64,000 nucleotides of DNA, taken from NCBI GenBank assembly GCA_903829945.1, contig CAIKRV010000054.1:1-64000 (forward strand), given 5' to 3'. This DNA is from an uncultured bacterium. Its GTDB lineage: Bacteria > Bacteroidota > Bacteroidia > CAILMK01. A program made the position numbers and the translations under genes. Every line of letters begins with the position of its first letter. Positions within the stretch are counted from its first letter, which is position 1. The notes beneath the pieces were generated by a model. That model searched no databases and was not told the DNA's origin. It was given only the letters and a program-made list of their open reading frames with translations. Of this stretch, positions 37,985 through 40,676 are shown one piece after another.

Positions 37985-38539
37985 ATGAAAACTAAATTAT
38001 TCTTACTGGCATTTACATTAATTCTCATTTCACTTCAAAGTAAAGCGCAAGATTTTATCACCAGGACCGGTCATATTACCTTTGTTTCTTCTACCCCAAT
38101 GGAAACTATTGAAGGGAACAATTATTCTGTTTCTTCCATTTTAAATACCAAAACCGGAGAATTAATATTCTCTTTATTAAATAAGTCCTTCCAATTTAAA
38201 CAAGCACTTATGGAAGAGCACTTTAATGAAAAATATATGGAGTCTGACAAATATCCGAAAGCAACTTTCAAAGGAAAAATTAAGGATATTAGTAAAGTGA
38301 ATTTTTCAAAAGATGGTATTTACCAAGTTGAAGTAGAAGGCGAATTATCCATGCATGGCGTCACTAAAACTGTTACTGAACCCGGTACCATTGAGGTTAA
38401 AGGTGGAGAAATTATTGCAAAAGCGAACTTCAATGTTGTTCCTGAAGATTATAAAATAGAAATACCTGCTTTAGTAAGGGAAAAAATTGCTAAAATTATT
38501 CCTATAAAAGTGGATATGGATTACAAGCCGAAGAAATAA
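37985..38539 (+). CDS. YceI-family periplasmic protein
   Basis: A 184-residue exported lipocalin-like protein with signal peptide (about 1-21, ending SKAQ). The YceI fold shows the early beta strands GHITFVSSTPMETIEGNN, a middle block YPKATFKGKI near 100-109 and the late motif MHGVTKTV near 135-142. Family members bind polyisoprenoids or amphiphiles in the periplasm, and the ligand here is unknown. It is divergent from the OB-fold/mrp unit and lies 68 nt upstream of rlmN. Confidence 0.88.
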   Translation: MKTKLFLLAFTLILISLQSKAQDFITRTGHITFVSSTPMETIEGNNYSVSSILNTKTGELIFSLLNKSFQFKQALMEEHFNEKYMESDKYPKATFKGKIKDISKVNFSKDGIYQVEVEGELSMHGVTKTVTEPGTIEVKGGEIIAKANFNVVPEDYKIEIPALVREKIAKIIPIKVDMDYKPKK

Positions 38540-38563
38540 ACATTTCGGAATATTTACCAAAAA

Positions 38564-38594
38564 TTGAATAGGGAACTAATTACACGTAACTTTG
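38564..38594 (+). promoter_or_regulatory. Promoter of rlmN
   Basis: TTG (38564-38566), a 20-nt spacer and TAACTTTG (38587-38594) fit the Bacteroidota consensus. The leader would be about 10 nt before ATG 38608. The boxes lie within a large dyad. Confidence 0.6.
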
Positions 38595-38609
38595 TAGTTA
38601 GTTCCCTAT
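38568..38609 (+). promoter_or_regulatory. 16-bp inverted repeat spanning rlmN promoter and start codon
   Basis: Arms 38568-38583 and 38594-38609 pair with one mismatch around a 10-nt centre (38584-38593). The -7 box is at the centre, and the right arm covers the short leader and the first two bases of the ATG. As DNA it may be an operator. In read-through RNA it would form a hairpin hiding the start codon. It has no T run, so it is not a classical terminator. Confidence 0.65.
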
Positions 38610-39645
38610 GTCGCTTATAAATATTCGCCATTTAACCAAAGAAGAAATCTCAAAAGAATTAAGCCTTTTGGGAGAACCTAGTTTTCGTGCCAACCAAATA
38701 TGGCAATGGCTATGGGAAAAGAACGTTGCAAGTTTTGAGGAAATGTCCAATTTACCGCAAGCTTTAAGAGAAAAACTAAGTCTGAACTTTAAAATCTACA
38801 AACTAAGCATTAATAATAAGCAAGTTAGCACTGATGGCACGATAAAACTTGGATTTAAATTATATGATAATGAGCTAGTTGAAGGTGTTCTTATCCCTGC
38901 GGACGATAGGATGACCGCCTGTATTTCTTCACAAGTAGGTTGTAGCCTAGCCTGCTCTTTCTGTGCCACTGCCAGGTTACCGAGAAAAAGGAACTTGTTT
39001 TTTGATGAAATTTATGATCAGGTGGCGAATATTAATAAAATTGCCCTTGAACATTATTCTAAAAAACTGACTAACATAGTTTTTATGGGTATGGGGGAAC
39101 CCTTACTAAATTATACAAACGTAATAAAAGGGATTGAACGCATAACTGCAGATGACGGACTTGGTATGGCTACCAAAAGGATTACCGTTTCTACTGCAGG
39201 TATTGCAAAGATGATCAAGAAATTAGCGGATGAAGAGGTAAAGTTTAATTTAGCCTTATCATTGCATGCTGCTACCGATGAAAAGCGTAACACCATCATG
39301 GCTATCAATGAAACAAACAATCTTGAGGCGCTTAAGGAGGCTTTACAATATTTTACGGATAAAACTGGTACACGAGTAACCTTAGAATACGTGATGCTTA
39401 GTGGATATAATGATGGCAAAGAGGATGTTATAAGTTTAGCAACCTTTTGCAAAAAGTTGCCTTGTAAAGTCAATTTAATTGAGTACAATCCTATTGAAAA
39501 TGGAATATTTAAGAAATCGTCCGGCAATGCATTGCACCGATTTAAAGACTATTTAGAAGCAAATCACATCATTGCAAACATTCGTAGGAGCCGGGGTGAG
39601 GACATTGACGCGGCTTGTGGACAGTTGGCTAACAAAGAGTTATAA
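38608..39645 (+). CDS. rlmN: Dual-specificity 23S rRNA/tRNA adenine-C2 methyltransferase
   Basis: A radical-SAM enzyme methylating C2 of A2503 in 23S rRNA and A37 in some tRNAs. The 345-residue length is typical. The radical-SAM cysteines are C112, C116 and C119 in GCSLACSFCATA. The resolving Cys near the C-terminus is in DAACGQLA (about 338), and MGMGEPLLN and SLHAA also match. The start ATG 38608 sits inside the right arm of the dyad. It is followed by a barrel gene with its own promoter, so it is probably monocistronic. Confidence 0.96.
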   Translation: MSLINIRHLTKEEISKELSLLGEPSFRANQIWQWLWEKNVASFEEMSNLPQALREKLSLNFKIYKLSINNKQVSTDGTIKLGFKLYDNELVEGVLIPADDRMTACISSQVGCSLACSFCATARLPRKRNLFFDEIYDQVANINKIALEHYSKKLTNIVFMGMGEPLLNYTNVIKGIERITADDGLGMATKRITVSTAGIAKMIKKLADEEVKFNLALSLHAATDEKRNTIMAINETNNLEALKEALQYFTDKTGTRVTLEYVMLSGYNDGKEDVISLATFCKKLPCKVNLIEYNPIENGIFKKSSGNALHRFKDYLEANHIIANIRRSRGEDIDAACGQLANKEL

Positions 39646-39729
39646 AAAAGTATGACGCTTTAAAAAGGAATAAGTTACATTCCTGAAACAATTTTTTCTA
39701 AAATTAATCGTTACGATTATAAAATTGAT

Positions 39730-39737
39730 TATTTTTG
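39730..39737 (+). promoter_or_regulatory. -7 element of outer-membrane barrel gene
   Basis: TATTTTTG fits TAnnTTTG and precedes ATG 39765 by 27 nt. It overlaps the in-frame TTG 39735, excluding that as a start. Confidence 0.5.
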
Positions 39738-39764
39738 CCATTCTTAAAAGCAATTTGTCAAAAA

Positions 39765-40676
39765 ATGAACGGAAAGAAAGCACTAGCCATGTGCGGTAGA
39801 ACACTGCTAACCGCATTATTAATCTTAGGATTCAAGGCTACAGGGTTGGCCCAGACAACATATAATATTGGTGTCATTGGTGGTGGGCAATATACAAACA
39901 TGAGTTGGGATGGTCCTTCAAGTGTAACTATGTATACTCCAGGTACTACTTACAAAACTTGGACCGGCAGGTTCAGTTATTTGGCAGGTCTTACCCAAGA
40001 GTTGCGTTTTGGAGATTATTTTTCAGTTCAATTAGATGCAATGTATTCAGATCGTGGTGCATGGCATGTTAATTCTGATTCTACTGATTATATTGATCGT
40101 GTGGCTTATCATCATTCTTCTCGTGATGAATCATTCCAATATGTGGATGGTCATTTATTGTTTAAATTCAATATTCCTATCGGTTACGAGCGTGTAGTTC
40201 CTTATGATCGTCCTGGTAAAAGAGCCTTTTTAAGCGTTTATGCAGGTCCTTATTTTGGATACTTGATGGGATATACTTCCACCGGCTATTCAGATACTTT
40301 GGAAATTGCAAAAGTAAATCGTGATTCTATCGTACGTTCTTCAGTAGATCGTACTACTTATACTACCAGCAACTTTAATAATAAGGTTCGTAAACAAGAT
40401 CCTGTATTGAAAACTGATATTGGAATTACTGTAGGTGCCGGTATTAACTTCCTTATTGGTGAAGGTGGTACATTTGGAATTGATTTCAGATATTCTACCG
40501 GTTTAGGTAGCATTGATAATTTCATGTATGGAACTAAAGTAGTATCAAAAAGTGATGATCCTACACAACAAGCAGTAGTTTATAATTATGCTAATGTAAA
40601 ACATAGTGGAATTTTCCAAGTATTATTAAGTTATAAGATTAGGCTTATTGGAGCTGGTCCAAACAGATATTTCTAA
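39765..40676 (+). CDS. Outer-membrane beta-barrel protein (porin/OmpA-like family)
   Basis: From ATG 39765, 303 residues with signal peptide (about 1-29, ending GLAQ). Alternating beta strands follow, with aromatic girdles (GVIGGGQYTNMSWDG near the N-terminus), ending with a terminal Phe (RYF). This is the porin-family/outer-membrane-barrel pattern widespread in Bacteroidota. Ligand or substrate unknown. It has its own promoter and a strong terminator, so it is monocistronic. The codon choices look adapted (many GGT and CGT), which suggests higher expression than its neighbours; that is an impression from reading. Confidence 0.8.
   Translation: MNGKKALAMCGRTLLTALLILGFKATGLAQTTYNIGVIGGGQYTNMSWDGPSSVTMYTPGTTYKTWTGRFSYLAGLTQELRFGDYFSVQLDAMYSDRGAWHVNSDSTDYIDRVAYHHSSRDESFQYVDGHLLFKFNIPIGYERVVPYDRPGKRAFLSVYAGPYFGYLMGYTSTGYSDTLEIAKVNRDSIVRSSVDRTTYTTSNFNNKVRKQDPVLKTDIGITVGAGINFLIGEGGTFGIDFRYSTGLGSIDNFMYGTKVVSKSDDPTQQAVVYNYANVKHSGIFQVLLSYKIRLIGAGPNRYF

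Follow-up and report, generated by a model that had tools for sequence, protein, structure and literature searches.

The start codon of rlmN in the window, i.e. the whole stretch of 64,000 nucleotides that was analysed, is reached by a near-perfect dyad centred on the predicted promoter of the gene, and we conclude that this dyad is probably a genus-restricted operator in double-stranded DNA, where a regulator of rlmN, most likely a repressor, would bind as a dimer or higher-order assembly. This reading is based on the position of the dyad well above chance and first among 163 promoter-like boxes, on its retention in a same-genus genome (G001) despite a changed spacer, on the same layout at OxyR-like, ArsR-type and SRPBCC-ArsR genes, and on a predicted rlmN mRNA that would lack the left arm. 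The features of the region, all located on the forward strand, are as follows.

37985..38539 (+): yceI, passing the Pfam PF04264 cut-off, 68 nt 5' of rlmN
38564..38566 (+): possible -33 TTG, 20 nt 5' of the -7 box; weak, read from the sequence
38568..38584 (+): left arm of the dyad, ATAGGGAACTAATTACA
38587..38594 (+): predicted -7 box TAACTTTG (TAnnTTTG), mostly within the dyad loop
38593..38609 (+): right arm of the dyad, TGTAGTTAGTTCCCTAT, ending within the rlmN ATG
38599..38600 (+): predicted transcription start, placed by the box-to-start distance reported for Flavobacterium johnsoniae (PMC6847099)
38608..39645 (+): rlmN, 345 aa, TIGR00048 with 375 bits against a cut-off of 290

A dyad far above chance overlaps the predicted rlmN core promoter

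The dyad covers 42 bases (38568-38609; ATAGGGAACTAATTACA CGTAACTT TGTAGTTAGTTCCCTAT) and consists of two 17-base arms, which pair at 16 of 17 positions, and a loop of 8 bases. Its sole mismatch, T38580 opposite G38597, would become a G-U wobble in the RNA form. A preliminary description of this DNA had reported arms at 38568-38583 and 38594-38609 with 15 of 16 positions paired, which we could reproduce, the full dyad being one pair longer. It had also placed the -7 box at the centre and the ATG (38608-38610) at the end of the right arm, and both positions are correct; that the dyad covers promoter and start codon holds if the -7 box is used.

To judge the dyad against chance, we used a sample of 665,303 bases, comprising the window and 40 stretches of its own genome (G000). 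This sample contains 53 inverted repeats with a score of at least 12 (54 on the joined string) and 30 with a score of at least 14, compared with means of 3.7 and 0.67, respectively, in six first-order Markov copies; from their position and A/T tails, most of the real repeats can be read as terminators. Around the 163 TAnnTTTG boxes located up to 60 nt from an ATG, the rlmN dyad ranks first (score 14), followed by a dyad at an OxyR-like gene (12) and a terminator-like site (11), whereas at 647 TAnnTTTG boxes within ORFs a score of 12 is attained once and 14 never. In addition, the DNA fold of the dyad strand is strong (z = -5.6), with none of 200 shuffles equally good. These results confirm that the dyad is real, lies far above chance and overlaps the predicted core promoter.

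The dyad is a single copy in its own genome, in which we found no second copy of the site, and a repeated or mobile element was rejected on this basis. A search of positions 38300-39000 against Rfam gave only rliB, at 17.3 bits (E 0.49), whereas the gathering score is 40. No regulator gene was recognised in the ORF list between 36500 and 41500; that neither a regulator gene nor another copy of the site was found counts against the operator.

Predicted promoter and transcription start of rlmN

The box TAACTTTG fits the -7 consensus of Bacteroidota sigma-A, TAnnTTTG (TAHHTTTG) (PMC6847099, PMC9723704), and so does TAATTTTG, the corresponding box in G001; the three commonest motifs reported for F. 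psychrophilum are likewise TAnnTTTG variants (PMC9723704). Of 109 distinct rlmN loci sampled, 34 have such a box in the last 50 nt before residue 5 of RlmN, compared with 16 that have it in the preceding 50 nt and 2 on the opposite strand, and a box ends at most 20 nt from the ATG in 75 of 484 sampled ORFs of the window's own genome. The rlmN promoter resembles other Bacteroidota sigma-A promoters in having TAACTTTG near the start, whereas the strength of its dyad is unmatched by the other 162 boxes. The -33 element (TTTG/TTG) is described as weak in F. johnsoniae (PMC6847099), and the distance between TTG and box is 20 nt in the window and 16 nt in G001.

In F. johnsoniae, the -7 box is reported to span -12 to -5, and probable promoters start 4 or 5 nt after the box (PMC6847099). 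Based on this distance, transcription of rlmN is predicted to start at 38599 or 38600 and to give a leader of 8-9 nt. Leaders of such length count against the operator, since they are a minority in F. johnsoniae, in which 13% of leaders have up to 10 nt and 87% have more (PMC6847099); for F. psychrophilum a median leader of 24 is given, and 5.5% of mRNAs are leaderless (PMC9723704).

With a start at this position, a protein bound to the dyad would occlude the -7 box together with the start point and the bases immediately 5' of the box, and RNA polymerase would be barred from the rlmN promoter. Upon release of the protein, a near-leaderless rlmN mRNA would be made, which starts 8-9 nt before the ATG. 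We infer that TAACTTTG sets the start, that a protein binds and that its binding represses. The autoregulation or coupling to the ribosome state that had been considered in the preliminary description finds no support in our analysis.

The dyad is retained in a same-genus genome despite a changed spacer

Including the window's own genome, we compared 4 genomes of the family and 12 of the order, among them one of the same genus, G001, which is 78% complete and carries rlmN on contig CAILMK010000757.1. The order yceI-rlmN is kept in G001, and yceI stands beside rlmN only in the loci of these two genomes (5 of the 112 loci sampled). The spacer between the two genes is 204 nt long in G001 compared with 68 nt in the window and is otherwise dissimilar; 90 nt ahead of the dyad it holds a T-tailed terminator of yceI (11 pairs, -20 kcal/mol). 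The dyad itself still adjoins the rlmN ATG in G001 and is identical at 33 of 42 bases, with 12 consecutive bases of the left arm (GGAACTAATTAC, 38572-38583) and also TTTGTAGTT unchanged.

Between the window and G001, 11 of the 17 pairs are invariant and two differ at both of their bases. The remaining four no longer pair in G001; two of these lie at the helix ends and two in the middle of the arms. Simulations with the observed number of changes per arm yielded at least 2 compensated pairs in 2.7-5.5% and at least 12 kept pairs in 10-18% of the cases, so that the covariation of the arms between the two genomes is suggestive only; in a shuffling approach the observed covariation was reached in 129 of 500 trials, as expected with two sequences, and the simulations are the fairer of the two tests, though weak as well. 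Both the loss of 4 of 17 pairs and the number of informative relatives, i.e. one, count against the operator.

The comparison with G001 also bears on the read-through hairpin of the preliminary description, an alternative that we consider quite unlikely. According to this explanation, the dyad acts as RNA in a transcript running from yceI into rlmN, where the 17-pair stem would either hide the AUG or serve as a yceI terminator without a U run; if the AUG was hidden, only mRNA from rlmN's own promoter would be translated. Indeed, the RNA fold of the dyad with its flanks is strong (z = -6.4), the only mismatch forms a G-U pair, which is kept in both species, and no terminator was found between the two genes in the window, so that a hairpin could still form there. 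However, the dyad persists in G001 even though the T-tailed terminator lies between it and yceI there, and the hairpin of G001 is weaker (z = -2.05). Moreover, the loop is formed by the -7 box, which would be superfluous for an RNA element, and an rlmN mRNA starting at 38599 or 38600 would lack the whole left arm and therefore could not form the hairpin. Compared with a DNA operator, an RNA hairpin is disfavoured. A usual terminator of yceI was rejected, as it had been in the preliminary description: the bases 3' of the right arm (GTCGCTTATA) contain no T run, none is listed between yceI and rlmN in the window, and G001 has a separate terminator.

Since the left arm lies outside the -7 box and the leader, the 12 identical positions within it also argue against another explanation, namely that the dyad is a functionless quasi-palindrome on an ordinary promoter, which templated mutation, with strands switching at an imperfect repeat, created or improved. 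This we regard as unlikely, although the window has the better dyad (16 of 17 pairs, compared with 12 of 17 Watson-Crick pairs in G001), one event could explain both doubly changed pairs, which adjoin each other, and the dyad is restricted to the genus. Upstream regions of these two genomes are often little alike: among 21 ortholog pairs whose upstream space measures 45 nt or more, 12 are identical at 12-21 of 45 positions, and nine at 31-42. With 31 identical positions rlmN is the lowest of these nine, and near rlmN, where 10 ortholog pairs were compared, seven have 11-20 identical positions, rlmN has 31 and the others have 34 and 42. This rank (9th of 21) counts against the operator, and identity alone does not distinguish rlmN. 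Of the eight pairs above rlmN, we judged four to be conserved non-coding upstream regions, and the other four to be coding sequence in front of a wrongly placed start codon. What is distinctive at rlmN is a conserved element that lies 5' of the -7 box and is complementary to the leader.

Among the same 21 pairs, the highest upstream identity (42 of 45) belongs to an outer-membrane beta-barrel gene (PF13568, ATG at 39765), whose upstream region at 39705-39764 of the window has no Rfam match and whose TATTTTTG box and leader are unchanged in G001.

Similar dyads are located at promoters of regulator genes

The second-best promoter dyad of the sample, GATATTATCTATCTTTGTATAGATAATATC (L149:10292-10321, G000:C18), fronts an OxyR-like LysR gene that is divergent from an AhpC/TSA gene and whose 226 bits fall short of the curated cut-off (329). 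It is perfect, with arms of 12 and a loop of 6 bases around the -7 box TATCTTTG, and it is like the rlmN dyad in centring on a -7 box near the ATG; it differs in its sequence, in the seven additional nucleotides before the ATG and in fronting a regulator gene. Autoregulation is known for OxyR-type regulators and may apply here. No homologue of the OxyR-like gene was matched in any of the other three genomes of the family.

Another perfect dyad, AATTATTAATCG-TAACTTTG-CGATTAATAATT with 12-base arms (L171:251-289, G000:C97), matches a covariance model built from the two rlmN sites weakly (E 0.1); it is followed by a single T, the ATG of an ArsR-family gene (PF01022) and then a methyltransferase gene. 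A still weaker match (E 4.1) was obtained at an SRPBCC-ArsR operon of G001. At this operon, GTAACTT..AAGTTAC palindromes flank a -7-like box in all four genomes of the family (L173-L176), the box being TTACTTTG in the window's own genome (L176, G000:C37) whereas the other three have TAnnTTTG. Regulators of these kinds typically bind the promoters of their own genes. As at these ArsR-family operators, inverted repeats flank the box at rlmN, and the right-hand element lies between box and ATG. In contrast, the sites are unlike in sequence (no more than 12 of 14 positions agree, over part of the site), the rlmN arms are not clearly palindromic themselves, rlmN is not a regulator gene and no regulator gene adjoins it. 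By analogy, a dyad on the -7 box may act as an operator signature in these genomes, and the preliminary description's view of the site as operator-like DNA is supported, given that the dyad is kept in G001 and that genes of known regulator kinds have the same layout.

At other ArsR-type genes (L178 in G000:C74, L177 and L181), different short repeats, e.g. GTAACC..GGTTAC, flank a TATATTTG-like box before the ATG, so that the layout recurs there with a different sequence.

The agreement over 14 positions mentioned above could mean that the ArsR protein of the SRPBCC operon targets rlmN itself, via GTAACTTTGTAGTTAG at 38586-38601 (operator: GTAACTTNNAAGTTAC). The site matches the operator at 12 of 14 positions; 665 kb contain 3 sites of this quality, of which two are inside ORFs and the rlmN site alone is intergenic. 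It lies 6 nt before the rlmN ATG, compared with 8 nt between the real operator and its ATG. Nevertheless, we consider this very improbable, since half of the match is the -7 box itself, the match drops to 10 of 14 in G001, its axis differs from that of the 17-bp dyad, and the site was picked after the fact.

Distribution and potential significance of the rlmN dyad

The 109 distinct rlmN upstream regions mentioned above derive from 112 loci minus 3 duplicates, namely the best 30 of one search, the best 80 of 281 of another and two that were added. Apart from the window and G001, the other 107 of these 109 lack the motif, with 15 of 24 arm bases as their best agreement, and have no dyad above a score of 9, which counts against the operator. 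Outside rlmN, the two-site covariance model found 6 weak matches in the order and, with stricter filters, 2 further ones in the class. In 395 genomes of the class, matches with E up to 0.02 occur in 5 genomes; three of these are neither G000 nor G001, and their matches are not at rlmN. Apart from the ArsR and SRPBCC-ArsR sites, the non-rlmN matches L165, L170 and L244 are inside ORFs, L166 precedes a ParA-like gene by about 230 nt, L167 precedes an ORF by about 44 nt and L245 is downstream of an ORF.

RlmN is an iron-sulphur enzyme that methylates 23S rRNA and tRNA. Tentatively, and with more doubt than confidence, we suggest that this methyltransferase is under a dedicated repressor in this genus, with a site spanning the entire core promoter, by which m2A levels would be set transcriptionally in a signal-dependent manner. 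If this is true, an rRNA/tRNA methyltransferase that is usually regarded as housekeeping would be subject to dedicated transcriptional control. In Enterococcus faecalis, RlmN is described as a redox-sensitive switch, and erythromycin did not significantly alter the level of rlmN mRNA (PMC10336011); in a study on DtxR of Corynebacterium, RlmN appears in a table of differentially expressed genes (PMC13001254). Within the open-licence literature, no title or abstract opening among the papers listed concerns an rlmN operator in Bacteroidota, which is weak evidence of absence, and we found no paper there on inverted-repeat operators of ArsR in Bacteroidetes. While switches of this kind are familiar, one on the housekeeping gene rlmN that is found in a single genus is unusual.

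If the dyad is indeed an operator, it would represent a compact bait for the discovery of the regulator. Furthermore, a dyad with a TAnnTTTG loop just before an ATG may be suggested as an operator finder for Bacteroidota; in the present sample, this combination of dyad and box found, with few other candidates, the OxyR-like and the ArsR-type genes.
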